DNA of 64,000 nucleotides from Pseudomonas sp. MTM4 (GTDB lineage Bacteria; Pseudomonadota; Gammaproteobacteria; Pseudomonadales; Pseudomonadaceae): assembly GCF_019355055.1 (NCBI RefSeq), contig NZ_CP048411.1, positions 496,001 to 560,000 on the forward strand, read 5' to 3'. Shown here piece after piece: positions 36,318-56,588 of this stretch. The position numbers were made by a program, and so were the translations under genes. Numbering within the stretch: position 1 is the stretch's first letter; every line of letters starts with the position of its first letter. The notes under the pieces were generated by a model, which had not been told where the DNA came from, made no database searches, and saw only the letters and a list, made by a program, of their open reading frames with translations.

Positions 36318-36436
36318 GATTGGGAGGCGAGGCCCCGCTACCTAGGCACGTGTATTCCGGTACTCAAGTAGCATTTTCGTGCCCAATGCCCTGACCAAGA
36401 ATGTGGGCAATCCGATAGCGGTGCGGGAGGCAGTGC

Positions 36437-41002: not shown

Positions 41003-41561
41003 TCATTCCGGACCGTTCAGAGCCTCCGGCGTTGCGGGGCTCAGGGGCAGGCCGGCCTGTTCCCAGCCGTCCACGCCATCGCGATACCAGTAAAGGTTCG
41101 TGTAGCCCAGTGCGTGAGCCCGTCGGGTGGCGTTCCAGCCCAGCCAGCAATCGGAGCGGCAGTAGAATACCAGCGGCTGGTCGAAACGCCCCCGGCTGAT
41201 ACGGGCAAGGTTCCTAGCGAAATAGTCCGCCCATTCCGGTGTGAGGGCTCCATCCCCGGTATTGGGCAGCCAGACGCTGCCGGGCAGGTTGGAGTGCGCC
41301 TCGGTTTCGATGAAGCGACCGGCCAGCCACTGGCGACGATAGACATCCACCAGCACCAGCTGCGGCTCGTCATCCAGCAATGTGCGTAGCGAGGCGGTGT
41401 CCAGCGTTTGCGCACCTTCGGCGGTGGCGGGCGTCGGGCTGCGGTAGTGCGCCTGGCGGTAACCCTCGGCGGAGAACAGCTCGTCATCCGCTTGCGCCGA
41501 TGCTGTCTGGTTGATGCCCAGGCAGGTCAATATGACGATCAGTAACGGTAGACGCGGCATC
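41003..41561 (-). CDS. PQQ-dependent catabolism-associated CXXCW-motif protein (rhodanese-like)
   Basis: 185 aa. Signal peptide MPRLPLLIVILTCLGINQTASA, then a rhodanese-like domain. LVFYCRSDCWLGWNATRRA holds the two Cys and Trp that name the family, followed by YTNLYWYRDGVDGWEQ. The family occurs with PQQ alcohol dehydrogenases and is thought to support their periplasmic redox chain, but its function is not established. AGGAG lies eight bases before the ATG. The much longer open frame upstream is not coding. Confidence 0.87.
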
Positions 41562-41644
41562 GTCTGGGCTCCTGTGTGCTCCGATGAAAGGATTACAGAA
41601 CAATGGTGCTGGCTTTGAAATCCTACGATGGAGGCGAAAACCGG

Positions 41645-41658
41645 TACCAAAGTAGTAG
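41645..41658 (+). promoter_or_regulatory. TACCAA motif, copy 1
   Basis: TACCAAAGTAGTAG, 303 bases before exaE. Shares TACCAA, AG at positions 10-11 and A at 13 with four other copies upstream of exaE, exaB, exaC and pqqA. Confidence 0.55.
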
Positions 41659-41740
41659 ATCGCCACGCGTCCAACGCGCAACCAGGAAGGAAGACGTCGG
41701 CGGCGCAAGCGGGACTGCATAGAAAGTACGGCTCCGGCGC

Positions 41741-41754
41741 TACCAAGGTAGTAG
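41741..41754 (+). promoter_or_regulatory. TACCAA motif, copy 2
   Basis: TACCAAGGTAGTAG, 207 bases before exaE and 96 bases after copy 1. CTACC-AA-GGTAG at its core is also an inverted repeat. Confidence 0.6.
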
Positions 41755-41832
41755 GCAGGTGAGTGTTTCCAAGCTCTAGCATGTGGTTATCCGTAGCACG
41801 AACTGGCGCCGGAAGCCCGTGAGGTACTAGCC

Positions 41833-41891
41833 GGTGCGCAGAGCGCACCCTACGGATGTACAAGACCCTTATAGGGTGCGCTCCGCGCACC
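41833..41891. repeat. REPIN 4 (GTAGGGTGCGC type)
   Basis: Inverted units at 41833-41853 and 41871-41891. It lies directly before the exaE start region. Confidence 0.85.
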
Positions 41892-41947
41892 ACGGACCTG
41901 ATGGCCGACAGTGGCCTGAACGTCCCTTATGAGAAGGCGGCTAGCCT

Positions 41948-42613
41948 GTGAAAATTCTTCTGGTAGATGACCATGCGATGGTGCGTCAGGGTTGCGCCGC
42001 GTTGCTGCGTGCAGTGCTGCCCGAGGTACAGCTGAGCGAAGCCTGCGACGGCGAGCAGGCGTTGGGCGAGTGCCAGCGGGACATCCCAAGCCTAGTGATT
42101 ATGGATATCGGCCTGCCAGGTATCAGCGGTATCGAGACCACGCGACGGCTGCGCCAGCGGCTGCCGCAGCTACGCGTGCTGTTTTTCAGCATGCACGATG
42201 AGCTTTCACTGGTTCGCCAGGCGCTGGATACCGGAGCGGCGGGATATATCACCAAAAAGGCGTCGCCACAGGTGCTGATCGAGGCCGTGCGGCGCGTTCT
42301 CTCCGGCCATGCCTATATCGAACAGCCGCTGGCTACCGAACTGGCGCGCAATCCTGGCCACTACGGCTCACCGGACCCGCGTCTGCAAGGCATGACTCAG
42401 CGTGAGTTCGAAGTTTTCGTGATGCTCGCCAAGGGCACACCCGCCCGGCAGATCGCCGAGCAGTTGTGCATCAGCGGCAAGACCGTTTCCAACTACCTGA
42501 CCATGCTCAAGAGCAAACTGCAGGTCGGCTCCCATGCTGAACTGGTACACCTGGCCATCGATACCGGCGTGCTGCGCGTCGGCGAGCGGAAAATGGTATT
42601 ACAAGTTTCCTGA
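41948..42613 (+). CDS. exaE: LuxR-type response regulator ExaE/EraR
   Basis: 221 aa. Receiver with D7/D8 and phospho-acceptor D53 (LVIMDIGLPGISGIE), and a C-terminal LuxR-type helix-turn-helix (MTQREFEVFVMLAKGTPAR then ISGKTVSNYLTMLKSKL). It corresponds to P. aeruginosa ExaE (EraR), which turns on exaA and exaBC. There the kinase ExaD/EraS lies next to it; here no such kinase exists in the window. An ATG follows GGCTAGCCTGTG with only a weak ribosome site. Confidence 0.85.
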   Translation: MKILLVDDHAMVRQGCAALLRAVLPEVQLSEACDGEQALGECQRDIPSLVIMDIGLPGISGIETTRRLRQRLPQLRVLFFSMHDELSLVRQALDTGAAGYITKKASPQVLIEAVRRVLSGHAYIEQPLATELARNPGHYGSPDPRLQGMTQREFEVFVMLAKGTPARQIAEQLCISGKTVSNYLTMLKSKLQVGSHAELVHLAIDTGVLRVGERKMVLQVS

Positions 42614-42700
42614 GGCGACCCACCGGGTGGAGTGTTTGTGGGTATGTGCCTGTGTAGGGTCGCTGATTACTTGGTAGGCATCTGAATGCATCGGCTTTTC

Positions 42701-42760
42701 GTAGGATGCGCTCCGCGCACCAGCGGCCTCGGTGAATGTGGTGCGCGGAGCGCACCCTTT
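42701..42760. repeat. REPIN 5 (GTAGGGTGCGC type)
   Basis: Units at 42701-42721 and about 42740-42758; the second reaches to within a few bases of the stop codon of the pentapeptide gene. Confidence 0.85.
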
Positions 42761-42766
42761 TCGCAA

Positions 42767-43411
42767 TTATTTTTCCCAGTCCATCGGGCAATCCGTGCAG
42801 CCTTCCATGTTGGTGCCCTGAAAGGTTGCGTAATGCCGGCGCGCGCCCGTGAGGATGGCATTTTCGAGGTTGGCGTCGTTGAACTTTGCTTCTTGCAAGT
42901 TGGCGTCGGTCAGGTTGGCGCCTTTGAGGTCGGCCTTGCTGAGCCAGGTCATCTCTAGGTCGGCGGCGCTCAGGTTGCTGTCGTGCAGCTTGGCGCCGCT
43001 CATGCGTGCAAATTCGAGGTAGGCGCCGGTGAGGTTGGCCCCCTTGAACTGCGCGGCCTGGGCGAACAGTCCCCAGCCCTGGATGGCTACCAGTTGGGCA
43101 TTGGTGAAATCGGCCAGGCGCAGGTTGGACTGTTGCAGGCTGGCGCGGTTGAGCGTTGCGCCGCTCAGGTTGGCCTTCTCAAGGTTGGCCAGGTCCAGAA
43201 TAGTGTGGCGCAGGTTGGCGCCGGACAGATTGGCGCCGGCCAGGTTGATCTTGCGCAGGTCCTGATTGCTGAGATCGGCACCGCGCAGGTCGGCGTTGGT
43301 GCACTGGCTTTCCGGTTCGAGTGTGCAGCCGTTAATGATCAGGGGTTGGTCGTCGGCGAAAGACGGGGCAGCAACGAATAACAAGGGAAGGATCAGGCTG
43401 GACGGTTTCAT
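42767..43411 (-). CDS. Secreted pentapeptide-repeat protein
   Basis: 214 aa. Signal peptide MKPSSLILPLLFVAAPSFA, then about 28 pentapeptide repeats of the A(D/N)LXX type (ADLRGADLSNQDL, ANLSGANL, and so on) forming a right-handed beta helix. Two cysteines lie before the helix and two near the C-terminal CTDCPMDW. Such proteins are often found beside exaA in pseudomonads, but the function is unknown. The ATG at 43411 is preferred over one five codons upstream; the ribosome site is weak. Confidence 0.87.
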   Translation of the reverse strand: MKPSSLILPLLFVAAPSFADDQPLIINGCTLEPESQCTNADLRGADLSNQDLRKINLAGANLSGANLRHTILDLANLEKANLSGATLNRASLQQSNLRLADFTNAQLVAIQGWGLFAQAAQFKGANLTGAYLEFARMSGAKLHDSNLSAADLEMTWLSKADLKGANLTDANLQEAKFNDANLENAILTGARRHYATFQGTNMEGCTDCPMDWEK

Positions 43412-43428
43412 ATGAGGCCCATGCATGT

Positions 43429-43488
43429 GTAGGGTGCGCTCTGCGCACCGGATTCAGAATAAAAGCTGGTGCGCGAAGCGCACCCTAC
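43429..43488. repeat. REPIN 6 (GTAGGGTGCGC type)
   Basis: Inverted units at 43429-43449 and 43468-43488, between exaA and the pentapeptide gene. Confidence 0.88.
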
Positions 43489-43555
43489 GGGCGACGAGAG
43501 CGCTCGCATCTAGCGAAAAGGCCGTGTCCGCGATGAGGCGGGCACGGCCGGGACA

Positions 43556-45427
43556 TCAGCGCTGGGCGGTCTTGTTTTCCCACTCAGGTAATTTGAACAC
43601 CCAGAACGAGCCGCCCTGTGCGACCGGCTTGGTCAGCTCGGCCATGTCGCCGCCCCACAGCGGCACTGCGCCGCCGTAACCGACGGTCACGCCGATGTAC
43701 TGCTCGCCGTCCTGCTCCCAGGTCACGGGCGGGGAGATGATTCCGCTGCCGGTCTGGAATTTCCAAAGCTCGTCGCCGGTCTTGGCGTCAAAGGCCTTGA
43801 AGTAGCCATCGCTGGTGCCGGTGAACACCAAGTTGCCCTTGGTGGCCAGCACACCGGCCCACAGCGGCAGCTTCTCCTTGTGTTCCCACTCCACCTTGCC
43901 GGTGGTGGGGTTCATGGCGCGCAGGATGCCAACGTGGTCGTCATACATGCGCTTGATGCGGAAGCCCTGGCCAAGGTAGGCCGAACCCTTCTTGTAGCTG
44001 ACTTCCTCGGTCCAGTAGTCCTCTTTCCAGTGGTTGGCAGGCACGTAGAACAGGCCGGTGTCCTGGCTGTAGGCCATGGGGTTCCAGTTCTTGCCGCCGA
44101 GGAAGGGCGGGGAGACCTCGACTGCTTTGCCGTGCTTCTCGCCCGGCTCGGGCTTGGGTGGACGCTGGCCTTCGTTTTCAATCGGGCGTCCGGTCTCGAG
44201 GTCGATACCTTTGGCCCAGGTGATGTTGTCGACGAAGGGGAAGGCGTTCTGCAGCTTGCCGTCGTTACGGTCGACCACGTAGAAAAAGCCGTTGCGGTCA
44301 GCGTGGGCGGTGGCCTTGATCGTCTTGCCGTCTTTGTCCTTGTAGTCGAAGAGCACTAGCTCGTTGTTGCCGGAGAAGTCCCAGGCATCGTTCGGCGTGT
44401 GCTGGTAGAACCATTTCACTTCACCGGTGCTCGGGTCGACGCCAACCTGGCCGGACGTGTAGAGGCTGTCGTAGTCCTGGGGCTTGCCATCCTTGGAGGT
44501 GCGTGCCCAGCCGTTCCACGGGGCCGGGTTGCCGGCTCCGACAATGATGGTGTTGGTCTCGGCATCGAAGCTCGCGCTCTGCCACGGTGCGCCGCCACCC
44601 TGGCTCCAGGCCTCGACCTTGCCGGTGGGGGAGTTCGGATCGTCCGGCCAGGAGGGCGCCTTGATGTCGCCGGTGGGGGTGCTGTCCTTGCCGTTCAGGC
44701 GACCCACATGACCTTCGACGAAGGGACGCATCCAGATTTCTTCACCGGTATCCGGATCGCGGGCGAACAGCTTGCCGACCACGCCAAATTCGTCCCCCGA
44801 ACTGCCGTGAATCAGCAGCACCTTGCCGGTCTCGCCGTCTTTCACGAGGGTCGGTGCGCCGGTCATGGTGTAGCCCGCGCCGTGATCGCCGAATTTCTTG
44901 TTCCAGACGACCTTGCCGGTGTCTTTGTTCAGCGCCACGACGCGAGCATCGAGAGTGCCAAAGTAGACCTTGTCGCCATAAATGGCGACGCCGCGGTTGA
45001 CCACATCGCAGCAGGGACGGATGTCGTCGGGCAGGCGATGGGCGTAGCTCCAGAGGCGCTTACCGGTCTTGGCATCCAGCGCGAATACCCGCGAGTAGGA
45101 GCCGGTGACGTAAATGATGCCGTCGTGCACCACGGCCTGGGATTCCTGTCCGCGCTGCTTCTCGTCGCCGAAGGAGAACGACCAGGCGGGTGTCAGCTTG
45201 AAGACGTTCTTGTCGTTGACCTGAGCCAGCGGGCTGAAGCGCTGGGCGTGGGTGCCCAAGCCATATTGCAGGACGTTGTTGGTCGAAATGTGGTCGTTGG
45301 CGATGTCTTCCCAGCTGACCGGCGTGGCCTGGGCGGCACCGATCATTGCAAGGCTGCCAGCCAGTGCCAGGCATTGCACGGCTAAGGCGAGGGGACGTTT
45401 GCTGCCGGGGTGCGATCTTGTTGTCAT
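43556..45427 (-). CDS. exaA: Quinoprotein ethanol dehydrogenase ExaA (PQQ, calcium type)
   Basis: 623 aa, the same size as P. aeruginosa ExaA. A signal peptide (to AAQA, about residue 34) is followed by an eight-bladed quinoprotein propeller with tryptophan-docking repeats. The adjacent-cysteine disulfide is in RPCCDVV (139-140). The catalytic Asp is about residue 350 in NDAWDFSGNN, and the residue two after it is Ser, not Asp, so the enzyme should use Ca2+ and not a lanthanide. It oxidises ethanol and other primary alcohols in the periplasm, passing electrons to ExaB. AAGGGA precedes the ATG. Confidence 0.94.
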   Translation of the reverse strand: MTTRSHPGSKRPLALAVQCLALAGSLAMIGAAQATPVSWEDIANDHISTNNVLQYGLGTHAQRFSPLAQVNDKNVFKLTPAWSFSFGDEKQRGQESQAVVHDGIIYVTGSYSRVFALDAKTGKRLWSYAHRLPDDIRPCCDVVNRGVAIYGDKVYFGTLDARVVALNKDTGKVVWNKKFGDHGAGYTMTGAPTLVKDGETGKVLLIHGSSGDEFGVVGKLFARDPDTGEEIWMRPFVEGHVGRLNGKDSTPTGDIKAPSWPDDPNSPTGKVEAWSQGGGAPWQSASFDAETNTIIVGAGNPAPWNGWARTSKDGKPQDYDSLYTSGQVGVDPSTGEVKWFYQHTPNDAWDFSGNNELVLFDYKDKDGKTIKATAHADRNGFFYVVDRNDGKLQNAFPFVDNITWAKGIDLETGRPIENEGQRPPKPEPGEKHGKAVEVSPPFLGGKNWNPMAYSQDTGLFYVPANHWKEDYWTEEVSYKKGSAYLGQGFRIKRMYDDHVGILRAMNPTTGKVEWEHKEKLPLWAGVLATKGNLVFTGTSDGYFKAFDAKTGDELWKFQTGSGIISPPVTWEQDGEQYIGVTVGYGGAVPLWGGDMAELTKPVAQGGSFWVFKLPEWENKTAQR

Positions 45428-45549
45428 GGTTGCGATTCCCTTGGTCGGTTCGGACAAGGCCGCTGCTCGGTCTGTGTAGACGCGGGTCTGACACTGCCGA
45501 TAGCGGCTTGGCGAATCGATTATTGGAAGCGCGGCGCAGGCGCCGATAC

Positions 45550-45582
45550 GGAAAAATTCCCGCGAACGCCGGGAATATTTCC
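45550..45582. promoter_or_regulatory. Inverted repeat in the exaA-exaB control region
   Basis: Arms GGAAAAATTCCCG and CGGGAATATTTCC, one mismatch, 7-base centre. No T run, so a protein-binding site is more likely than a terminator. Confidence 0.6.
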
Positions 45583-45655
45583 CAAACGTCCGGTGTTTTG
45601 GCCTTGCTCCACAAGTGCTGTTCGACCCACTGCCAAAGGTGGTGGGAAAGCTTGC

Positions 45656-45669
45656 TACCAAGGGAGGAG
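45656..45669 (+). promoter_or_regulatory. TACCAA motif, copy 3
   Basis: TACCAAGGGAGGAG, 127 bases before exaB. Shares all nine fixed positions with the other copies. Confidence 0.6.
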
Positions 45670-45782
45670 TCGCCGGCTTCCAAAGCAGGATTCAGTCAAC
45701 CCGACACCACCGCCAACATGGTCGCCATGCGCTCCCGGAAGGGGGCTGCCTTGCACGGATTCACGAAACGAGGTGGTTAGTC

Positions 45783-46220
45783 ATGAACAATAAGAACCCT
45801 ATGCGCGCACTTGTGGCTGCAGGCTTTATCGCTGTAACCGGTCTGGCCCTGGCTCATGGTGATGTCGTTCCCCATGCCGTAGAGACCAAGGGCCTGCCCG
45901 CTCTTGGTGAAGAGTGGGTGGATGAAAACCCCTATCGTGAACCGGGCGAGCACCACGACCTTGCTGTAGAAATTGGCTCTTCTGCCTACAACCAGAACTG
46001 CGCCCGCTGCCATGGTCTGGAAGCGATCTCAGGCGGCATCGCGCCGGATCTGCGTGAGCTGGAAGCCGATATAAGCGGTGACGAGTGGTACAAGGAGCGC
46101 GTGATCAACGGCGCGGTGCGAGACGGCGCGGTGTACATGCCACGCATGGCCGATACGCTCAGCCAGGAAGCGCTGTGGGCCATCCGTACCTATATAGAGA
46201 GCGAAGCGACCAAGCAGTGA
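45783..46220 (+). CDS. exaB: Cytochrome c550 ExaB
   Basis: 145 aa with a signal peptide (to about ALAHG, residue 26). The haem site is CARCH (73-77) and a candidate Met ligand lies in VYMPRM. It is the electron acceptor of ExaA in P. aeruginosa. GAGGTGG lies eight bases before the ATG. Normal length. Confidence 0.93.
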   Translation: MNNKNPMRALVAAGFIAVTGLALAHGDVVPHAVETKGLPALGEEWVDENPYREPGEHHDLAVEIGSSAYNQNCARCHGLEAISGGIAPDLRELEADISGDEWYKERVINGAVRDGAVYMPRMADTLSQEALWAIRTYIESEATKQ

Positions 46221-46234
46221 TGCGGGTGAAAAAT

Positions 46235-46295
46235 GTAGGGTGCGCTCCGCGCACCGCACGCACCGAGGTCTGGCGGTGCGCCAAGCGCACCCTAC
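46235..46295. repeat. REPIN 7 (GTAGGGTGCGC type)
   Basis: Inverted units at 46235-46255 and 46275-46295, between exaB and the SoxYZ-like gene. Confidence 0.87.
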
Positions 46296-46382
46296 GAAAA
46301 AACCGTGCTGCTTCGTGCAGGCGGACAGCTCATCCGAAAAGATCACGGGGCTGCCATGCCGATCCGCCGCCGGAGATACGAC

Positions 46383-47132
46383 ATGAACATGCGAATCCTG
46401 CTGGCACTCGTGCTGACCGTTAGAACCGACGGCCTGTTCGCGGCCGACACCGACCCGCTGCAATCGGTCATGTGGGAGCACCACCACGAGCGCGTGCTGA
46501 ACGGCGAGCCTTACGTGTTCGACGACCGCGTACAGGTGCTTGTGCCGCCCTTCGCCGAGGATGCGCGCCAGGTGCCGATGCACATCGATGCCCGCGCCCT
46601 GGGCGATGAAGTGGTGCGTATCGAGGCCTGGGCCGAACTCAACCCCATTCCACGCGTGTTCAGCTTCAGCCCCGGCGAACAGGTACTGCCGTTGGTGGCG
46701 ATTCGCTTCCGCGTGGAGCAGGCCACGCCCATTCGCGCGGCGGTTCTGACCCGAGATGGCGTCTGGCACGTGGGCTCGGCCCGGGTGGATGCCGCTGGCG
46801 GGGGCTGTTCGGCGCCAAGCGTAGTGCGCACCCAGCCCGGATGGGAAAAGCGGCTGGGAAGGGTAGTGGGCGGTCGCTTCGAGCGTAGTACTGGCAGCCG
46901 CCTGCGATTGCAGGTATCGCACCCGATGGACAACGGCTTGATTAGCGGCATTCCCGAATTCTTCCTAAACCAGGCCGAGCTGCGCGATACCGAGGGCAAC
47001 GTACTGGCGACGCTGGAGCTGTATCCGGCCGTCAGCGAGAACCCGACGCTGAGCCTGGAAGTGAAAGGCCAGCAAGGCACCCGCCTGTGGTTGCGCGACA
47101 ACAACGGCAACGAGTTCGAGGCGGCATTGTAA
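46383..47132 (+). CDS. Quinoprotein dehydrogenase-associated SoxYZ-like carrier protein
   Basis: 249 aa. Signal peptide MNMRILLALV to GLFAA. Residues about 25-145 resemble SoxY and end in AAGGGC (Cys 142), the place where SoxY carries its thiol on a flexible arm. Residues about 150-249 resemble SoxZ (SHPMDNGLISG, VSENPTLSLEV). Such fused proteins cluster with PQQ alcohol dehydrogenases rather than sulfur oxidation genes; their job is unknown. CGGAG precedes the ATG by seven bases. Confidence 0.87.
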   Translation: MNMRILLALVLTVRTDGLFAADTDPLQSVMWEHHHERVLNGEPYVFDDRVQVLVPPFAEDARQVPMHIDARALGDEVVRIEAWAELNPIPRVFSFSPGEQVLPLVAIRFRVEQATPIRAAVLTRDGVWHVGSARVDAAGGGCSAPSVVRTQPGWEKRLGRVVGGRFERSTGSRLRLQVSHPMDNGLISGIPEFFLNQAELRDTEGNVLATLELYPAVSENPTLSLEVKGQQGTRLWLRDNNGNEFEAAL

Positions 47133-47146
47133 GACCCGCTGCTTTT

Positions 47147-47167
47147 GTAGGGTGCGCTCCGCGCACC
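47147..47167 (+). repeat. Single REP unit (GTAGGGTGCGC type)
   Basis: One unpaired 21-bp unit, ending 24 bases before the metallohydrolase ATG, inside a likely operon. Confidence 0.88.
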
Positions 47168-47190
47168 GGCTTTCCCGGCAAGGAAACGAC

Positions 47191-48120
47191 ATGCGCTTGC
47201 TTATCCTGACCCTCGCGTTCTGCCTGGCGCTGCCTGTACAGGCCGAGTTGCAATATCGGCTGCAGCCGCGCCAGATCGCCGAAAACGTCTGGCTGCTGGA
47301 AGGCTCGACGGACAACTTCGACCCACGCAACGGCGGCAATATCGTCAACACCGGCTTCATCGTGACCTCAGCCGGTGTCGTGGTTATAGACAGTGGTCCT
47401 TCCAGACGCTACGGCGAAGCCATGCGCGCCGCTATCGCCGAGGTTACCGATCGTCCCGTCATCAAGGTGCTGCTCACCCATCACCATCCCGACCATGTGC
47501 TGGGCAACCAAGCGTTCGCTGACGTGCCCATCGCCGCGCTTGCCGGGACGGCCGATCTGCTGCGCGAGCAGGGCGATGCCATGGCCGAGAACATGTACCG
47601 GATGGTCGGCGACTGGATGCGCGGCACCGAGGTGGTGCTGCCGAACGAAAAGCTGGAGCCTGGGCTGCTGGAAGTCGGTGAACACAGGCTGCGCCTGCTG
47701 CAATTGCACGGCCACACCGGTGCTGACCTGGCGGTTCTTGATGAAATCAGTGGCGTGCTCTTCGCCGGTGACATCCTCTTCTACCAACGTGCCCTGACCA
47801 CACCCAATAGCCCCGGGCTGGATGTATGGCTGGCGGATCTCGATCGTCTCGAAGCCACGCCCTGGAAACTGCTGGTGCCCGGCCACGGCCCGTTGAGCCG
47901 TGACAGCGCGCCGTTCGAGCAGATGCGCGATTACCTGGGCTGGCTCGACGGTCTGTTGCGCGACACTGCGGCCACCGGTGCCGACATGAACGAAGTCATC
48001 CAGAGCCCGATGCCCACGCGCTTCGCCGGCATCAGCCTGACACGCTACGAACTGATCCGTAGCGTCAGCCATCTCTATCCGAAATACGAAGCTCGGCAGC
48101 TGCAGCGGGTGGATGATTAA
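47191..48120 (+). CDS. Quinoprotein relay system zinc metallohydrolase
   Basis: 309 aa. Signal peptide MRLLILTLAFCLALPVQA, then a metallo-beta-lactamase fold. The zinc motif HHHPDH is at 97-102, with further ligands in LHGHTGADL and PGHGPLS. It belongs to the SoxH-related group found with PQQ dehydrogenases and the SoxYZ-like carrier, which sits just upstream. Substrate unknown. AAGGAAA lies seven bases before the ATG. Confidence 0.9.
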   Translation: MRLLILTLAFCLALPVQAELQYRLQPRQIAENVWLLEGSTDNFDPRNGGNIVNTGFIVTSAGVVVIDSGPSRRYGEAMRAAIAEVTDRPVIKVLLTHHHPDHVLGNQAFADVPIAALAGTADLLREQGDAMAENMYRMVGDWMRGTEVVLPNEKLEPGLLEVGEHRLRLLQLHGHTGADLAVLDEISGVLFAGDILFYQRALTTPNSPGLDVWLADLDRLEATPWKLLVPGHGPLSRDSAPFEQMRDYLGWLDGLLRDTAATGADMNEVIQSPMPTRFAGISLTRYELIRSVSHLYPKYEARQLQRVDD

Positions 48121-48137
48121 AAGACAGCCGCTCAGTT

Positions 48138-48244
48138 GTAGGTGCGCTCCGCGCACCGACCCCGCGACGAAGCCCCCTGGTGCGCGGAGCGCACCCTACA
48201 GGCTAGGCCGGAGCTCATGCAAAGTAGGGTGCGCTCCGCGCGCC
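48138..48244. repeat. Triple REP cluster (GTAGGGTGCGC type)
   Basis: Three alternating units: 48138-48157 (one base short), 48179-48199 inverted, 48224-48244 (slightly diverged). It sits between the metallohydrolase and exaC. Confidence 0.87.
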
Positions 48245-48284
48245 GGACATTGCATCGCAGCTCCGCAGAGCCCTTGGCATCTAC

Positions 48285-48298
48285 TACCAAATGAGGAG
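48285..48298 (+). promoter_or_regulatory. TACCAA motif, copy 4
   Basis: TACCAAATGAGGAG, 128 bases before exaC. Shares all nine fixed positions with the other copies. Confidence 0.6.
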
Positions 48299-48412
48299 CG
48301 TCTCGCTGCCATGGGCGCATACCGGGGGTGGTGGGGCGCTGCCTAAGATCGGTCCATGCCCTGCGTCCGTTCTGGCGCAGGCTCTGACACGCAGAAGAAA
48401 GAGAGGCCCATC

Positions 48413-49933: not shown

Positions 49934-50354
49934 TGGATGGGCTCCGGCGTGCGCTCCCGAATGCGCCGGTTACTTGGCAGGCACCGAGTGTGCCGAGCCT
50001 TTCCGAGCCATCATCCCCGTGACGGCCGGACGGCTCGTTTCGCAGCGCGGCCTTTTGGCCGCGTTTTTTTAGAAGAACGCTGTAAGAACGTGCGGGCTCT
50101 GGTTCTGCACTAGAGTGCTTTCGGCAGAGCACTGTTTTCATTCCTGACACAACTGTTCCACTCCTCGCTTCGCCTGTTCCTTCCCTGGTACAGCTGCCCG
50201 CCTGCCAGCGCAGTCATTTCTGCTTTCATCCAATCATCAGGCCCAGTATCCACGCGCCCTCCAGCGATAAAGCGTAACGCTGGCACAGCCATTGCGATAT
50301 CTCAGGGACCGTGGCGCGACGCTGCGGCCCCTAATAAGAACTGGAGACGCATTG
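49934..50354. other. Intergenic region before the quinohemoprotein gene
   Basis: 420 bases. It holds the exaC terminator (50046-50070) and, on the minus strand, a partial match to the TACCAA motif (50177-50190). No convincing gene. Confidence 0.55.
50046..50070 (+). terminator. Rho-independent terminator after exaC
   Basis: CGCGGCC-TTTT-GGCCGCG followed by seven T. About 110 bases after the exaC stop. Confidence 0.9.
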
Positions 50355-52541
50355 ATGAATCCTACTGGCCTGCAAAGGTGTGGAGGCGCAGAGCCGCCGC
50401 CAGCCGCCTCGTTCGTGAAAAGCCTGTTCACCGTGCTGGCGTTGAGCGCGGCCTGTTCTTCGGTAGCGCTAGCGGCCGATGTCGACGGCAAACGCATCGC
50501 CAATGCCGACGCTGAACCCGGCAACTGGATGAGCCACGGTCGTGACTATGGTGAGCAGCGTTACAGCCCGCTGACGAACATCACAGCCGAGAACGTCGAC
50601 GAGCTGGGGCTGGCCTGGAGTTACAAGCTCGACATCGACCGTGGCGTGGAAGCCACGCCTATCGTGGTCGATGGCGTGATGTACACCACTGGCCCGTTCT
50701 CCATCGTCTACGCACTGGACGCCCGCAGCGGGGAGCTGATCTGGAAGTACGATCCGCAGTCCGACCGCTCCCGCGCTGGCGAAGCCTGTTGTGATGCGAT
50801 CAACCGCGGCGTTGCCGTGTGGAAAGGCAAGGTCTACGTCGGCGTGCTCGATGGTCGCCTGGAAGCCATCGACGCCAAGACCGGCGAACGCGTCTGGTCC
50901 GTCGATACCCGCAACGACAAAGCGCGCAGCTACTCCATCACCGGCGCGCCGCGAGTGGTCAATGGCAAGGTCGTGATCGGCAATGGTGGCGCCGAGTTCG
51001 GTGTACGCGGCTACGTGACCGCCTACGATGCCGAGACCGGCGAGCAGGCCTGGCGCTTCTTCACCGTGCCCGGCGACCCGGACAAGCCCGCCGAAGGCAA
51101 AGGCATGGAAATCGCGAAGAAGACCTGGCACGGCCGCGCCTTCGTCGAACAGGGCGGTGGTGGCACCGCGTGGGACTCCTTCGCCTACGACCCCGAGCTG
51201 AACCTGCTTTACATAGGCGTCGGCAACGGCTCGCTGTGGGACCCGATCTGGCGCAGCGAAGGCAAGGGCGACAACCTGTTCCTGTCCTCCATCGTCGCGG
51301 TCAACGCCGATACCGGCGAATACGTCTGGCATTACCAGACCACGCCTGGCGATGCCTGGGACTACACCGCTACCCAGCACATGATTCTCGCTGACCTCGA
51401 AATCGAGGGGAAAGAGCGCAAAGTGCTGATGCAAGCGCCGAAGAACGGCTTCTTCTACGTCATCGACCGCGCCACTGGCGAACTGCTGTCGGCCGAGAAC
51501 ATCGTGCCGATCAACTGGGCCAAGGGTGTCGATCTGAAGACTGGCCGTCCCATCGTCGACGACGAAGCCGCGGCCTACTGGAAGGGCGAGAAGAAGGCCA
51601 AGCTGGTCCAGCCCGGCTTCTGGGGCGCGCATGACTGGCACCCAATGTCTTACAACCCGGACACGGGCCTCGTCTACATCCCTGCACACATCATGTCCGC
51701 CTGGTACGAACACGTGCCGGACGCGCCGGCGCGCAACAAATTCAAGAGCATGTATCAGCTGGGCCTGAAGACCGGGATGATGCCTGAGGACCCCGAAGGC
51801 CTCGGCAAGTACGCCGACACCTGGTCCGGCAAGCTGATCGCCTGGGACCCGGTGAAGCAGGAGCAGGCCTGGGAAGTGCCCTACGTCACCATCTTCAACG
51901 GTGGCACCCTGACAACCGCCGGCAACCTGGTGTTCGAGGGCAGCGCCGATGGTCGCGTCATCGCCTACGCCGCCGACACCGGCAAGAAGCTATGGGAACA
52001 GCCCGCCGCCAGTGGCGTGATGGCAGCACCTGTGACCTACAGCGTCGACGGCGAGCAGTACGTGACCTTCATGGCTGGCTGGGGCGGCGCTTTCTCCACC
52101 TTCGCCGGGGCCTTGTCGCTGCGGGCCGGCGTGCAGCCTTATGCGCAAGTGCTGACTTACAAGCTCGGCGGTACGGGCGAATTGCAGGAACCAGCACCAC
52201 GGGCAGACGCACCCGAGCCGCCACCGCTGACCGCCGACGCCGCCACGGTCGAAGCCGGCGCCAAGCTCTACGACGGTTATTGCTCACAGTGCCACGGTAT
52301 CCACGCGGTCAGCGGCGGTGTGCTGCCGGATCTGCGCATGCTTACCGCGGAAAAGCACGAGCAGTTCCTCGGCATCCTCCACGGCGCTCGGATACCCGAC
52401 GGCATGCCGTCGTTCGCCGAAGCCTTCGACATGGAACAGATGAAGCAGATCCATCAATACCTGATCAAGCGCGCCCACGACCGCGTCGAGCACGGCCCGG
52501 ACGACCTGCCGCAGCCGACTCAGAAAACCGCAAGCAACTGA
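50355..52541 (+). CDS. Quinohemoprotein alcohol dehydrogenase (type II, PQQ and haem c)
   Basis: 728 aa. Signal peptide (long, to ALAA about residue 42), PQQ propeller with adjacent cysteines in GEACCDAI and catalytic Asp 336 in GDAWDYTATQ. The residue two after it is Thr, so calcium, not lanthanide, is expected. A linker rich in Pro and Ala leads to a cytochrome c domain with CSQCH (643-647) and probable Met ligand in IPDGMPSF. This is the type II layout, active on longer or secondary alcohols. GGAG lies eight bases before the ATG. The aldehyde dehydrogenase gene follows by 16 bases. Confidence 0.93.
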   Translation: MNPTGLQRCGGAEPPPAASFVKSLFTVLALSAACSSVALAADVDGKRIANADAEPGNWMSHGRDYGEQRYSPLTNITAENVDELGLAWSYKLDIDRGVEATPIVVDGVMYTTGPFSIVYALDARSGELIWKYDPQSDRSRAGEACCDAINRGVAVWKGKVYVGVLDGRLEAIDAKTGERVWSVDTRNDKARSYSITGAPRVVNGKVVIGNGGAEFGVRGYVTAYDAETGEQAWRFFTVPGDPDKPAEGKGMEIAKKTWHGRAFVEQGGGGTAWDSFAYDPELNLLYIGVGNGSLWDPIWRSEGKGDNLFLSSIVAVNADTGEYVWHYQTTPGDAWDYTATQHMILADLEIEGKERKVLMQAPKNGFFYVIDRATGELLSAENIVPINWAKGVDLKTGRPIVDDEAAAYWKGEKKAKLVQPGFWGAHDWHPMSYNPDTGLVYIPAHIMSAWYEHVPDAPARNKFKSMYQLGLKTGMMPEDPEGLGKYADTWSGKLIAWDPVKQEQAWEVPYVTIFNGGTLTTAGNLVFEGSADGRVIAYAADTGKKLWEQPAASGVMAAPVTYSVDGEQYVTFMAGWGGAFSTFAGALSLRAGVQPYAQVLTYKLGGTGELQEPAPRADAPEPPPLTADAATVEAGAKLYDGYCSQCHGIHAVSGGVLPDLRMLTAEKHEQFLGILHGARIPDGMPSFAEAFDMEQMKQIHQYLIKRAHDRVEHGPDDLPQPTQKTASN

Positions 52542-52557
52542 AGCCACGGAGAGCGAT

Positions 52558-53994
52558 ATGACCGACGCAATCACCTATCAGAACTACATCGACGGCGAAT
52601 TCGTCGCCTGCGACAACCTCGTCGAAGTGCGCAACCCGGCCAACGGCGCCGTGCTTTCCCGCGTGCCAGAATCGGACGCAGCCACCACAGAGCGCGCCAT
52701 CGCGGCTGCGCGCACCGCGCAAAAGGAGTGGTCCAACAAACCGGCCATCGAGCGCGCCAGCTATCTGCGTGCCATCGCCAGCAAGATTCGCCAGAACGCC
52801 GAGCGTCTGGCTCGCGTGATTACCGAAGAACAGGGCAAGATCCAGAGCTTGGCACTGGTGGAGGTCAACTTCACGGCCGACTACATGGATTACATGGCCG
52901 AGTGGGCGCGGCGTATCGAAGGTGAAATCATCACCAGCGACCGCCCAGGTGAGAACATTTTCCTATTCCGTAAACCGCTGGGCGTGGTAGCCGGCATCCT
53001 GCCGTGGAATTTCCCATTCTTCCTGATCGCGCGGAAGATGGCGCCGGCGCTGGTCACCGGCAATACCATCGTGATCAAGCCCAGCGAAGAAACCCCGAAC
53101 AACTGTTTCGAATTCGCCAAACTGGTGGCCGAGACCGACTTGCCGAGGGGCGTCTTCAACGTGGTCTGTGGCAGCGGCGCCGGTGTCGGTGGCGCGCTGA
53201 CCACGAGCAGCGGGATCGACATGATCAGCTTCACCGGCAGCGTTGGCACCGGCTCGCGGATCATGGCCGCTGCGGCGCCTAACGTCACCAAACTCAACCT
53301 CGAGCTTGGCGGCAAGGCACCTGCGATCGTTATGAACGATGCCGATCTGGAGCTGGCGATCAACGCTATTCGCGCCTCGCGAATCATCAACACCGGCCAG
53401 GTGTGCAACTGCGCCGAGCGCGTCTACGTGCAGCGAGGCGTGGCCGACCAGTTCATCGAACGCATCTCCGGCGCAATGGCTGAAACCCGTTACGGCGACC
53501 CGATCGCGCAGGCGGATGTAGAGATGGGCCCACTTATCAACGAGGCCGGACTACGCAAGGTCGAGCAAATGGTCAGAACCGCCCAGAATCAGGGCGCCCA
53601 GCTGATCACTGGCGGCCAGGTCGCTGACTTAGGCCAGGGCTTCCACTACCAGCCGACGATCCTTGCCAACTGCTCGCAGGACATGGAAATCATGCGTCAG
53701 GAGATCTTCGGCCCGGTGCTGCCAATCCAGATCATCGACGACCTGGAGGAAGCCATTGCACTGGCCAACGACTGCGAGTACGGCCTGACTTCGTCGATCT
53801 ACACCCGCGACCTGTCCACCGCGATGAAAGCGGCCGCTGGGCTGGATTTCGGCGAAACCTACATCAACCGCGAGAACTTCGAAGCGATGCAGGGCTTTCA
53901 TGCTGGCACTCGAAAGTCGGGGATCGGCGGGGCGGACGGCAAGCACGGGCTCTATGAGTACACCCGTACGCATGTGGTTTATATCCAGCAGTAA
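52558..53994 (+). CDS. NAD+-dependent aldehyde dehydrogenase AldA-like
   Basis: 478 aa. ILPWNFPFFLIARKMAPAL, FTGSVGTGSRIM, catalytic Glu in LELGGKAPAIV and Cys in NTGQVCNCAERVY. The sequence resembles E. coli AldA (lactaldehyde/glycolaldehyde dehydrogenase). It probably handles the aldehyde made by the quinohemoprotein enzyme just upstream. GGAG lies seven bases before the ATG. Confidence 0.92.
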   Translation: MTDAITYQNYIDGEFVACDNLVEVRNPANGAVLSRVPESDAATTERAIAAARTAQKEWSNKPAIERASYLRAIASKIRQNAERLARVITEEQGKIQSLALVEVNFTADYMDYMAEWARRIEGEIITSDRPGENIFLFRKPLGVVAGILPWNFPFFLIARKMAPALVTGNTIVIKPSEETPNNCFEFAKLVAETDLPRGVFNVVCGSGAGVGGALTTSSGIDMISFTGSVGTGSRIMAAAAPNVTKLNLELGGKAPAIVMNDADLELAINAIRASRIINTGQVCNCAERVYVQRGVADQFIERISGAMAETRYGDPIAQADVEMGPLINEAGLRKVEQMVRTAQNQGAQLITGGQVADLGQGFHYQPTILANCSQDMEIMRQEIFGPVLPIQIIDDLEEAIALANDCEYGLTSSIYTRDLSTAMKAAAGLDFGETYINRENFEAMQGFHAGTRKSGIGGADGKHGLYEYTRTHVVYIQQ

Positions 53995-54001
53995 AGGTAA
54001 G

Positions 54002-54018
54002 GGCCGCCTTGGGCGGCC
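54002..54018 (+). terminator. Short hairpin after the aldehyde dehydrogenase
   Basis: GGCCGCC-TTG-GGCGGCC, 7-bp stem. Followed by mixed pyrimidines, not a clean T run. Confidence 0.5.
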
Positions 54019-54230
54019 TCATACCCATCTTCCTTCTTCAGGGTAAGACCAGCGAATCAGGACTCGCCCCTGGAGAGCCGCGGAAAGCTCGGACCTCGAA
54101 CTGCCGAGCACTATTTCAGTGAGGCACGGCGCCAGGATGGCGAGGCACGGAAAGCCTTCCTAGGTATCGCCATTCGCCATCTGCGGTCAGCTCGCTCCAT
54201 GGCGTGCTGAGTCTCTCCTGCAACTCAGAG

Positions 54231-56183
54231 CTAGAACATCTCATTGGGCTGGACGATGCCGTGCTTTTTCATCTTGCGGTACAGCGTCGAGCGGGAAACG
54301 GAGCTGGCTTCGGCTGCCGCGCTGATGTTCCAACGGTATTGCCGCAGGACTGCCAGCAGATGGCGCGCTTCGTCGTCGCCCAACTGGTCGGCCAGGGTGG
54401 CTGCTGGCGCCGGCGGCGCGGCCGGAGCGGGAAGGGACGGTTGATGCAGCTCGGCAGGTAGGCAATCGCAATCGATCACACCGTCTTCGGCCAGGGCCAC
54501 GGCGTAACGTAGCGCATTGAGCAACTGGCGGATATTGCCAGGCCAGGGATGGTTGAGAAGGCGCTGGCGTGCCGCTTCGTCCAGACGTAATCCATCAGCG
54601 TCGGCCTGAGCGCTGAGCAGGTTGTGAATCAGCTCGGCGCGGTCGCTGCGCTCGCGCAAGGCCGGCAGCGCCAGGGTCATGCCGCTGAGTCGATAGAACA
54701 GATCCTCGCGGAACAGCCTGGCCTGGATCATCCCGTGCAGATCCTGATGCGTGGCGGACACCACCTGCACATCCAGCGGCACCGGCGTCTCGGCACCCAA
54801 GGGAAAGATCTCTCGCTCTGCCAGCACCCGCAGTAGACGGGTTTGCAAATGCGCCGGCATATCGCCGATCTCATCGAGAAACAGCGTGCCGCCGTTGGCC
54901 AGCTCCAGCTTGCCCTTCATGCCTTTCTTGCTGGCACCTGTGAAGCTGCCGCTACGGTAGCCGAAGAGTTCGCTCTCGATCAGAGTTTCCGGGATGGCGG
55001 CACAATTGAGGGCGATGAAAGGACCGCCTCGCCGGGCGCTGGCCTGATGGACGGCCCGCGCGAAGGCTTCCTTGCCGGTGCCTGTCTCGCCAGTGATGAG
55101 GATAGGGATACCTTTATCGATCACCTTGCGGATTCGCCGCACGCCCAGTTGCAACTGCGGGTCGCTTCCGCCGAGATGTTCAAGGTCGGGATGCTCGCTT
55201 GCCGGGGTGCGAGCGCACGCATCTGACGTCGGACGCGCGGAGCGCAGATGGTTCGCGGGAATGCGCAAGCCAACATCCATCAGCGCCTCGCCCTGCAGGG
55301 AACGCAGTCGCACGCCACGGGCTCCGCCGTTGGTCATGCTGAGCAGTTCATTGACGTTGGCCGGCAGTAGGCTATCGATGGGCCGGCCGAGCAGGGCGCT
55401 TCCATGGCCTTGCTCGTAGGCGACGAAGGCGGCGCGGTTGGCACCGATCACCCGTCCTTGTTCGTCCAGGGCCAACAACTGTTCATTGGCAAGATCGGTG
55501 ATGTCGTCCCGTGGCTTGATGGCCAATGTCAGGCGATCGCGGTAGCTCTGATGGAAGTGGGCGTTCTCGATCAGCCGCGCGTACATGATCACCAATTGCA
55601 GGGTCAGGTACTGCGCTTCCTTGGGGCCATCGCTGTTCAGGCATGTGGCGTTGAGGCAGCCGCGCAGCTGGCCCTGGGCGTCGAAGATTGGCGATACCGA
55701 GCAGCTCAGGCGGAAGTTCGTGGCGAGGAAGTGCTCCTCACGGTGGATGGTCAGCGCCTGGGTCGCGGCAAGGGCAGTACCGATGCCGTTGGTACCGGCG
55801 ACCGATTCGTCCCAGCGCGCACCGATGATTAGCCCAGACTGAGTGTAGAGGTCGCGCTGTGCGGGCAGGCGCGCATCCAGCGTGACGCCGCCCTCGTCGC
55901 TGAGCAGCACGGAGAAGCCGGCTTGCACGACGCGCTTGGCCAGGCCGGTGACGCCCTGGCTGGCGACAGCCAGATACTCCTGATGCTGAGCCTGGTGCTG
56001 GCGGATCTCGGCAGCGGTGAGAATGTTCTTCTCGCAGCGTCCGCGCGGGTTGAGGCGGTGCTGGGTAACGCTTCGGTACCAGGACTGAGCAATCAAGCCG
56101 TCCGGTTGAATGCCACGTTCGGGAAAGTGATCAGCCACGAAGGCTGCGAGTTCGCTGGCATTATCCGAAGCATGCAAATTCAT
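54231..56183 (-). CDS. Sigma-54-dependent Fis-family activator (AcoR-like)
   Basis: 650 aa from the ATG at 56183. A GAF-type sensor (about 55-200), PAS-like region, then the AAA+ domain: GETGTGKEAFARAVH (Walker A), the sigma-54 loop ELFGYRSGSFTGASKKG (GAFTGA region), GGTLFLDEIGDMP (Walker B) and an Arg finger region. The C-terminal Fis helix-turn-helix reads WNISAAAEASSVSRSTLYRKMK. The family (AcoR, others) controls acetoin, ethanol and butanol genes. The position between aldA and pqqA suggests it controls the quinohemoprotein-aldA operon. Confidence 0.92.
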   Translation of the reverse strand: MNLHASDNASELAAFVADHFPERGIQPDGLIAQSWYRSVTQHRLNPRGRCEKNILTAAEIRQHQAQHQEYLAVASQGVTGLAKRVVQAGFSVLLSDEGGVTLDARLPAQRDLYTQSGLIIGARWDESVAGTNGIGTALAATQALTIHREEHFLATNFRLSCSVSPIFDAQGQLRGCLNATCLNSDGPKEAQYLTLQLVIMYARLIENAHFHQSYRDRLTLAIKPRDDITDLANEQLLALDEQGRVIGANRAAFVAYEQGHGSALLGRPIDSLLPANVNELLSMTNGGARGVRLRSLQGEALMDVGLRIPANHLRSARPTSDACARTPASEHPDLEHLGGSDPQLQLGVRRIRKVIDKGIPILITGETGTGKEAFARAVHQASARRGGPFIALNCAAIPETLIESELFGYRSGSFTGASKKGMKGKLELANGGTLFLDEIGDMPAHLQTRLLRVLAEREIFPLGAETPVPLDVQVVSATHQDLHGMIQARLFREDLFYRLSGMTLALPALRERSDRAELIHNLLSAQADADGLRLDEAARQRLLNHPWPGNIRQLLNALRYAVALAEDGVIDCDCLPAELHQPSLPAPAAPPAPAATLADQLGDDEARHLLAVLRQYRWNISAAAEASSVSRSTLYRKMKKHGIVQPNEMF

Positions 56184-56319
56184 TGTGATCCTCAGTGGCC
56201 GATGACGGGCCTGGGGGCACGTCCCGACGTCTTGTTGTTTTTTGTCGAACCAGCGGCTGACCGAACGCTTCAACCATAGACTTCTTCAGCGGCTCTTTCT
56301 GTCATCCATCCGTCGGAGA

Positions 56320-56335
56320 TGGCACGGATACAGCA
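56320..56335 (+). promoter_or_regulatory. Possible sigma-54 promoter
   Basis: TGGCACGGATACAGCA keeps GG and GC ten bases apart, as sigma-54 needs, but the -12 half is CAGCA rather than TTGCA. It points towards pqqA. Confidence 0.35.
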
Positions 56336-56424
56336 AGTGATATGCCGGGAGCACTCGGCGTCACCGCAAGTCCCGAGCTTGAGCGGTCAGAGGTAGGCCG
56401 CAGAGTGCGGATGTCGGCACAGCC

Positions 56425-56440
56425 GTCGCAAGAATGCGAC
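56425..56440. promoter_or_regulatory. Inverted repeat in the pqqA upstream region
   Basis: GTCGCA-AGAA-TGCGAC. It may be a binding site for the adjacent activator or another regulator. Confidence 0.4.
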
Positions 56441-56478
56441 ATGTGGAGCGGACAGGCGTACAGGTGTCGCTGACACGC

Positions 56479-56492
56479 TACCAAATCAGGAC
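56479..56492 (+). promoter_or_regulatory. TACCAA motif, copy 5
   Basis: TACCAAATCAGGAC, 110 bases before pqqA. Shares all nine fixed positions with the other copies. Confidence 0.6.
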
Positions 56493-56588
56493 CGAAACTC
56501 GTTCGAAAGTAGCATTCGGGGGTGTCGGGCCTGATGGTTAACTCAAATCTGCCGGAATTCTCCGGCTTCATAAGAAGAGGAACGACCC

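Follow-up and report, generated by a model that had tools for sequence, protein, structure and literature searches.

What joins the promoters of an alcohol-oxidation gene cluster into one regulon, and which regulator reads them? We addressed this question in a 64,000-nt stretch of Pseudomonas sp. MTM4 DNA (NZ_CP048411.1 positions 496,001-560,000; hereafter the window, with window-relative coordinates), in which an earlier note had pointed by eye to five plus-strand sites as the operator of an alcohol-oxidation regulon bound by AgmR/ErbR or ExaE. An exact pattern count over the window gives five occurrences of TACCAANNNAGNAS and no more, with coordinates and strand as given there (41645, 41741, 45656, 48285 and 56479), and this number is far above chance, 100 dinucleotide shuffles containing 0.03 occurrences on average and 1 at most. 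Distances to the start codon were likewise confirmed for exaB (127 bp), exaC (128 bp) and pqqA (110 bp). The claim that each site lies upstream of a plus-strand gene of the pathway fails at 41645, which belongs to the minus-strand agmR operon: its end is 98 bp from the start (41560) of a minus-strand CXXCW gene that is itself upstream of agmR. The site at 45656 falls between exaB and the divergent exaA, whose start is likely near 45430.

Over the whole 4.69-Mb genome, TACCAANNNAGNAS and its reversed control pattern have 16 matches each, and 11 of the former lie beyond the window; the bare 14-mer is thus at background outside the window, its unusual feature being the five sites inside 15 kb, and was rejected as a genome-wide predictor. 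Genome-wide background occurrence, which had been named as evidence against the motif, is therefore a property of the bare 14-mer and not of the full paired element described below, which is specific.

The 14-mer falls within an 18-bp dyad, CTACTACCAAGGNAGTAG; the consensus of the box, TACTACC-AA-GGTAGTA, has half-sites inverted round a two-base centre. Related genomes usually carry this dyad (box1) as the upstream one of two. A gap of 3-5 bp separates it from the other dyad (box2), a -10 hexamer follows 22-23 bp further on, and the box starts are 22 bp (21-23) apart. With spacing left free, box2 starts 22 bp from box1 in 31/32 exaB upstreams and 22-23 bp in 53/53 exaC upstreams, and the best -10 lies 22-23 bp from box2 in 31/32 and 48/53, respectively. 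Few upstreams of other classes contain both boxes (pqqA 7, CXXCW 17, porin 3, nosP 2, second ADH 0), and among those of CXXCW another spacing was chosen in 5/17 and the best -10 lay at 22 in only 6/17. Dyad pairs average 6.06 of 9 in exaB box1 against 2.39 for 18-mers of the window, six other classes reach only 2.5-4.3, and pqqA box1 in the window is hardly dyadic (2/9 pairs).

A composite scan combined the -10 with box matrices from exaB and exaC of other genera and genomes, the reversed window serving as control; its -10 matrix and the gaps it permitted were chosen manually once the promoters had been inspected, gap 3 with the CXXCW promoter of the window in view. Two further models were used: R1, built from exaB and exaC only, and R2, trained on further classes as well, porin and nosP among them. 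Both exclude, by design, the window and the rows from its genus. Of the 121 selected rows, 119 were aligned, an L061 porin and an L082 ExaA-like row being dropped; L047, a false pick in the first training list, is not in R1 but is among the 51 rows used to build the box matrices of the composite and free-spacing scans. The composite scan identified six promoters in the window, the lowest scoring 12.0 against a control maximum of 7.7. Over the 4.69-Mb genome R2, with 150 of 662 first-look candidates scored, returned six matches, all in the window (porin, nosP-nahK, CXXCW/agmR operon, exaB, exaC and pqqA). R1 returned exaC and exaB, then porin (E 0.2) and position 2010357 (E 0.7), the last inside an apparent ABC-transporter gene and taken as chance. 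Searched by itself with at most 3 mismatches, the 18-mer had 9 genome matches against 15 for the reversed control; only 3 of the 9 were cognate sites in the window. One box is thus not specific, and specificity resides only in the pair with its -10.

The predicted exaC promoter (48281..48349, plus strand) comprises box1 at 48281-48298 (site 48285), box2 at 48303-48320 and a -10, TAAGAT, at 48344-48349, with a composite score of 52.8 (R1 E 3.0e-12; R2 E 1.6e-5). That of exaB (45652..45719, plus strand) scores 39.1 (R1 E 3.4e-7 genome-wide; R2 E 1.0e-4), with box1 at 45652-45669 (site 45656), box2 at 45674-45691 and a poor -10, CAACAT, at 45714-45719. For pqqA (56475..56543, plus strand), box1 at 56475-56492 (site 56479), box2 at 56498-56515 and TTAACT at 56538-56543 give 25.6 (R2 E 8.8e-5). 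The site at 41645 overlaps box1 (41658-41641) of the putative minus-strand promoter of the CXXCW/agmR operon (41592..41658), which has box2 at 41637-41620 and TGTAAT at 41597-41592 (composite 26.1; R2 E 0.0029). The first gene of this operon (41003..41560, minus strand; stop at 41003), judged from its translation, encodes an exported protein that we take to be CXXCW-type, rhodanese-like and PP_2666-like. Two additional AgmR-type promoters on the plus strand precede a porin gene at 35001 (34888..34955; box1 34888-34905, box2 34910-34927, GATAAT 34950-34955; composite 18.4 against the reversed-window maximum of 7.7; R2 whole-genome E 1.7e-6) and nosP-nahK at 36437 (36335..36402; box1 36335-36352, box2 36357-36374, AAGAAT 36397-36402; composite 12.0 against 7.7, the weakest composite match; R2 E 5.0e-5). 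The earlier reading included neither of these two promoters, nor the minus-strand agmR promoter, box2, the dyad or the -10 phasing.

The predicted exaE promoter (41714..41782, plus strand) has a poor distal half (41714-41731), a strong proximal box (41737-41754; site 41741) and TAGCAT at 41777-41782; it lacks a good second box and gives only a weak partial match to R2 (E 1.1). Two other loci, L038 and L069, have this layout ahead of the ORF that precedes exaE, and L025 and L030 have it ahead of a different gene. Reading the L025, L030 and L038 matches as minus-strand promoters was rejected given a plus-strand -10 at 22 bp.

Conservation upstream of orthologous exa and pqq genes, which the operator reading led one to expect, is borne out: the box is kept before exaB and exaC in Pseudomonas, Marinobacter and Halomonadaceae, and 27/30 pqqA and 19/19 CXXCW-agmR upstreams (the latter with the same layout as in the window) exceed a 99% null. 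These counts refer to distinct upstreams because of duplicates among the loci; 40 of the stretches overlap one another in places and include at least three apparent duplicates (L135/L155 = L025, L156 = L020, L143 = L028), and the 79-locus table omits L078, whose upstream is too short. At ≥65% identity, 13/16 nosP and 9/16 porin upstreams exceed the null, both being classes that also trained R2. None does so for PedD (0/14), SoxYZ (0/28), SoxH (0/28) or NahK (0/21), and no box was found before the second PQQ-ADH of the window (0/5) or AldA (0/5). Boxes do precede 13/13 close exaA orthologs (>60% identity), but by eye these look like divergent exaB boxes read backwards and were rejected as exaA's own. 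Most of those before ErcA (9/26), and most or all of those before PqqB (18/22), are the pqqA promoter itself, reached across a short pqqA. A Marinospirillum locus (L076) was dismissed as a counter-example from the mismatch scan, since the composite scan detects in it a phased pair that has diverged (score 14.5). The motif is supported as the probable operator of the alcohol-oxidation regulon by its conservation, its phasing with the promoter and its specificity across the genome.

AgmR/ErbR, encoded at 40292..40957 on the minus strand, is a NarL-type response regulator and the proposed binder. It scores 183.8 bits against the ErdR model, under that model's cut-off of 390, and its best solved relative by sequence is NarL. 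Among 119 Pseudomonadaceae genomes, scored with R1, the paired box occurs in 73, comprising 70/74 with AgmR and 3/45 without, an association whose Fisher values are overstated, given the non-independence of the species and the location of box and agmR in one cluster. The exceptions are four AgmR-bearing genomes without an R1 match (G006, G023, G037, G066) and three matches without AgmR (G044, 4.1e-6; G001 and G083, weak). The recognition-helix segment is identical at 14-16 of 16 positions in 15/16 AgmR-like proteins compared (12/16 in L076), and head-to-head AgmR-like genes in Halomonadaceae also count in favour of AgmR. The box is carried by AgmR-dependent genes, namely exaB, exaC, pqqA, the exaE/exaD side and the agmR operon (dependence per PMC13390443 and PMC12997753). 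Because its distribution tracks AgmR, survives the absence of ExaE and is not linked to ErdR, AgmR is the best candidate, and the paired box is most likely an operator occupied by AgmR (ErbR).

It is highly improbable that the boxes are an operator bound by ExaE (PedR2/EraR). The ExaE-like response regulator of the window (41948..42613, plus strand), which has no partner kinase, is encoded within the cluster, and a box is present in 52/56 ExaE-positive genomes. Yet the paired box is kept in 18/18 genomes with AgmR but no ExaE, so ExaE is not required and is disfavoured, and none of the 119 genomes has ExaE without AgmR at the thresholds used. Four ExaE proteins match the AgmR recognition helix at only 3-5 of 16 positions, the exaA boxes resemble backward exaB boxes, and the pedS2R2 promoter requires PedR1 only (PMC13390443). 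ExaE is better placed as a proposed target; of the earlier reading, the regulon operator and AgmR survive and ExaE as binder does not.

That ErdR/CrbR reads the boxes as ACTU elements of the acetate regulon is likewise highly improbable. Eight distinct ACTU 17-mers (from the nine table rows listed), compared with box1/box2, rank within the best 1.3% of random 17-mers taken from the window and several reach ≤1e-4, the fit being in only one of two registers tried; ErdR shares 11/16 recognition-helix residues, and ACTU lies at -52 to -36, near predicted box2 (PMC5715377). ErdR is, however, found in 118/119 genomes (104 above the curated cut-off), including all 45 without AgmR, 42 of which lack the paired box, so it fails to explain the box distribution, and ACTU is described in that paper as a single box. 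A conserved promoter or leader without a regulator, or chance aided by by-eye choice, would suit a pattern found by eye whose 14-mer sits at genome background. Conservation, fixed phasing and six genome matches confined to the cluster make this explanation extremely improbable, as does the lack of a box in 37/41 exaC loci without exaA, exaB, pqqA or agmR neighbours.

AgmR therefore remains the favoured reader, and from sequence comparison the motif is very probably the first dyad of a two-box operator that accommodates a pair of dimers of NarL-type AgmR (ErbR/PedR1). We infer binding, phosphorylation, start sites and activation as follows. Each 18-bp box would take one AgmR dimer on its inverted half-sites, and the 22 bp between box starts equal two helical turns, which would place both dimers on the same side of the DNA. 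A start about 7 bp past the -10 hexamer would put box2 at about -51 to -34 and box1 at about -73 to -56. Phosphorylated AgmR could then make up for a weak -35 contact by recruiting sigma-70 polymerase, switching on exaB, exaC, pqqA, porin, nosP-nahK and exaE, and its own operon in a positive loop.

We lean towards a broader interpretation, in which AgmR-family regulators share a single phased tandem operator that defines an alcohol-oxidation regulon across Pseudomonadaceae, Marinobacter and Halomonadaceae. It would have outlived swaps of enzymes and of the local two-component system (a PQQ-ADH accompanied by ExaE; a different PQQ-ADH where ExaE is absent; a zinc alcohol dehydrogenase and ExaC in Onishia, with no PQQ genes nearby). 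It would also link alcohol sensing to agmR autoactivation and to nosP-nahK, the sensor pair for nitric oxide. The box and the recognition helix may change in step with the phasing kept constant (L076). The operator predicts that autoactivation and AgmR control of nosP-nahK. It also lets direct and ExaE/PedR2-mediated AgmR action be tested at each promoter, makes the regulon predictable in any genome and offers clean parts for alcohol biosensors. Comparison with ACTU may also indicate how the related regulators AgmR and ErdR divide related sites.

AgmR itself was already known; what the analysis adds is its candidate docking site, which amounts to a useful regulon definition and not a new kind of system. 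The operator may have been described before in a RegPrecise ErbR entry or a 2021 DAP-seq survey of response regulators. NarL operators consist of two inverted heptamers with 2 bp between them (7-2-7), a geometry fitted by the TACTACC-AA-GGTAGTA consensus, but the heptamer sequence is only partly alike and the AgmR operator is a fixed tandem pair. Main-text passages of the open literature searched give no AgmR operator sequence (the HT-SELEX atlas PMC8041468, PMC12997753, PMC13390443, PMC5715377, PMC8402216, PMC9023270, PMC13086498, PMC5487730, PMC8233155, PMC3840689, PMC12051241). The AgmR/ErbR (PedR1) regulon of Pseudomonas (PMC13390443, PMC12997753, PMC9023270) overlaps the genes with boxes at exaB, exaC, pqq, the exaE side and the nosP-nahK region, which lies within the ErbR-2 iModulon PA1975-PA1990. 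In P. putida, PedR1 is needed for pedE, pedI and pedF and acts alone for the pedS2R2 promoter; AgmR genetically tops the ethanol/PQQ cascade, and opinion is divided on whether it acts on catabolic genes directly or solely by way of ExaE/PedR2 (PMC13390443). To this regulon we add a proposed operator sequence, its phasing and putative agmR-operon autoregulation. A close known counterpart of the box is ACTU, the 17-bp imperfect dyad of the related LuxR/NarL-type regulator CrbR/ErdR, which shares its register and centre and likewise lies directly upstream of a sigma-70 promoter, acting in C2 metabolism (Sepulveda and Lupas 2017, PMC5715377). By register the box belongs to the ACTU class, although its distribution is not that of CrbR/ErdR (73/119 genomes against 118/119). 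The right half reads GGNAGTAG in the AgmR box and is mostly RGTCNAAT-like in ACTU, and the AgmR operator further differs in its two boxes 22 bp apart, in its target genes and in a presence that follows AgmR rather than ErdR.

The pattern TACCAANNNAGNAS matches the window exactly five times, at 41645, 41741, 45656, 48285 and 56479, just as the earlier note had claimed, where shuffles expect 0.03. Genome-wide (4.69 Mb) we count 16 matches, the same number as for the reversed control pattern, and the bare pattern is thus at background outside the window; what is anomalous is the presence of five matches within 15 kb. The proposal that this motif is the operator of the alcohol-oxidation genes captured part of the truth: the motif belongs to a real operator, only part of which had been recognised. 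The complete element is best read as a tandem, helically phased putative AgmR operator that overlaps a sigma-70 promoter whose -35 is poor, and as present at seven window promoters, including that of agmR's own operon.

Family searches of the window identified NosP, NahK, a pentapeptide protein, an ExaE-type regulator, a PQQ-ADH (ExaA), cytochrome c550 (PedF/ExaB), ExaC, a second PQQ-ADH, SoxYZ-like and SoxH-like proteins, pqqB/C/E, ErcA and an ErcS-like kinase, while the AgmR-type regulator scored 183.8 bits with the ErdR model, under the cut-off of 390. The names AgmR, ExaE, ExaA and porin are our assignments from cluster order and the literature, with no curated model behind them. An exported gene presumably of the CXXCW type (41560 to 41003, minus strand) lies between agmR and exaE, so sites 41645 and 41741 fall in a divergent region; exaA likely starts near 45430, which places site 45656 between divergent genes as well. 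The agmR start codon at 40957 is TTG, not ATG; the agmR of locus L017 also starts with a Leu codon, that of L020 starts with Val, and the others start with Met.

A search of genome contigs with ExaC provided 80 loci for comparison. Ahead of exaB and exaC in Pseudomonas, Marinobacter and Halomonadaceae, the motif recurs as an 18-bp dyad, CTACTACCAAGGNAGTAG (box1), about 105 to 160 bp ahead of these genes, with both halves altered in the Halomonadaceae form (CTCCTACCAAGGGAGGAG). A weaker dyad that mostly ends in GCAT or GTAT (box2) lies 4-5 bp past box1, and a -10-like hexamer lies 22 bp past this second dyad. With spacing left free (box matrices trained on exaB/exaC themselves, -10 matrix set by hand), box1 and box2 were 22 bp apart, start to start, in 31/32 exaB and 22-23 bp apart in 53/53 exaC upstreams, and the best -10 lay 22-23 bp from box2 in 31/32 and 48/53, respectively. 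Free-spacing support beyond these classes is thin: the boxes were 21-22 bp apart in 12/17 CXXCW upstreams (36 bp in 5/17; -10 at 22 bp in 6/17), 23 bp in 6/7 for pqqA, 21-22 bp in 3/3 for the porin and 22 bp in 1/2 for nosP, and no second-ADH upstream had both boxes. A dyad-like third copy, CCACTGCCAAAGGTGGTG, occupies 45627-45644, 25 bp upstream of the exaB box1, and also occurs in L017.

We scanned the window with a composite matrix trained on exaB/exaC of loci L020-L096 only (51 rows, one of them, L047, false), admitting a 3-bp gap to accommodate the CXXCW layout. Scores were 52.8 for exaC, 39.1 for exaB, 26.1 for CXXCW-agmR (minus strand), 25.6 for pqqA, 18.4 for the porin and 12.0 for nosP, and the reversed window reached 7.7; the scan was partly blind, in that the pqqA and CXXCW layouts were known beforehand and those of porin and nosP were not. 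A second model (R2; 119 promoters in eight classes, the window's genus left out) reported six places at E up to 10 in the 4.69-Mb genome, all in the window, with 150 of 662 first-look candidates scored: porin (1.7e-6), exaC (1.6e-5), nosP (5.0e-5), pqqA (8.8e-5), exaB (1.0e-4) and CXXCW-agmR (0.0029). Searching the window alone, unfiltered, returned these six promoters at E no higher than 3.9e-5, with the next-best match at 0.036. The porin and nosP classes had been picked with the composite, and R2 therefore tests orthologous conservation there, not independent discovery.

The exaE site departs from the usual order, with the strong box promoter-proximal, the distal half poor and TAGCAT 22 bp downstream. 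This layout is also found in L038 and L069, ahead of an ORF preceding exaE that we took as exaD from position alone, and in L025 and L030, ahead of some other gene; exaE in the window itself follows an element that elsewhere precedes the ORF ahead of it. REP-like palindromes (gtgcgcggagcgcaccctac and variants) occupy several intergenic regions (41830-41890, 46240-46300, 48130-48190), and one stands between the exaE promoter and exaE.

We compared distinct upstreams, at most 330 bp long, with a null distribution of 1638 values; those above 99% of the null were 26/26 for exaB and 53/93 for exaC (both partly training classes), 19/19 for CXXCW, 27/30 for pqqA, 20/22 for an ExaA-like second PQQ-ADH (46-60%) and, at identity of at least 65%, 13/16 for nosP and 9/16 for the porin (15/16 each above 95%). 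None exceeded 99% for PedD (0/14), SoxYZ (0/28), SoxH (0/28), NahK (0/21), ErcS (0/12), AldA (0/5) or ADH2 (0/5), and one did for PqqC (1/19). The count immediately ahead of agmR itself is low (5/37) because the box precedes the operon's first gene. Of the 79 exaC loci compared, 38 have an exaA, exaB, pqqA or agmR neighbour, and 37 of these carry the box (exception L020); of the 41 without such a neighbour, 37 lack it (exceptions L019, L028, L050, L061). Promoters of the 46-60% ExaA-like PQQ-ADH (L122 1325-1396, L138 5325-5396 and similar) combine box1 with a conserved CAATTGTTG stretch, a -35-like TTGTTG and AAGAAT.

AgmR/ErbR and ExaE had both been suggested as binders, and we infer that AgmR binds the paired element. 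In a set of 119 Pseudomonadaceae genomes, 74 carry AgmR (E up to 1e-75), 73 the element as modelled from exaB/exaC only (E up to 0.01 under stricter filters) and 56 ExaE (E up to 1e-50). The box is present in 18/18 genomes with AgmR and no ExaE, in 52/56 with both and in 3/45 without AgmR (Fisher, ignoring kinship: 7e-24 for AgmR, 6e-12 for ExaE). ExaE itself (41948-42613) appears to be an orphan: a search of 33001-64000 for an ExaD-like kinase found none, and across the genome only one match, a 31% kinase elsewhere, reached E 1e-15. ErdR occurs in 118/119 genomes, and the one without it (G002) carries AgmR and the box.

In eleven Halomonadaceae loci (L053, L056-L058, L060, L062, L063, L067, L073, L077, L087), an AgmR-like gene (50-54% identity) and a paired box stand head to head, and none of these loci yielded an exaE of at least 50% identity. 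The gene opposite the AgmR-like one, named by eye from its sequence, reads as a zinc-type alcohol dehydrogenase in L063 and L067 and as a further exaC in L073. Both zinc-type examples are from Onishia taeanensis (L063 8600-9758, L067 8600-9756), where the AgmR-like gene faces the dehydrogenase with the same paired box and the locus yielded no PQQ genes. In Litchfieldella L059, AgmR (73%) is not head to head, and boxes stand at exaB, PQQ-ADH and, weakly, exaC. Over the recognition-helix segment, 15/16 AgmR-like proteins are identical at 14-16 of 16 positions, ErdR at 11 and four ExaE at 3-5. The remaining AgmR-like protein (L076, 12 of 16) has an altered helix alongside an altered yet still phased pair. 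In this Marinospirillum locus a perfect but different dyad, CCAGGACTTAAGTCCTGG, holds the box1 position 139 bp ahead of exaC; box2 and the -10 keep their phase, and the AgmR-like gene lies alongside.

A review and the ErbR-2 iModulon, as far as their available text goes, cover overlapping genes (PMC12997753, PMC9023270). The accessible portion of one study reports that PedR1 (AgmR) is required for pedE, pedI and pedF and that the pedS2R2 promoter requires PedR1 alone (PMC13390443). We found no AgmR operator in the accessible text of the open literature. A close comparison is with CrbR/ErdR, which works via ACTU, an imperfect inverted repeat of 17 bp that spans -52 to -36 of P. fluorescens acs and whose role was established through mutation and activation in E. 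coli (PMC5715377). Scored against box1 and box2, eight ACTU examples rank within the top 1.3% in one register, and the other register tried gives no such fit.
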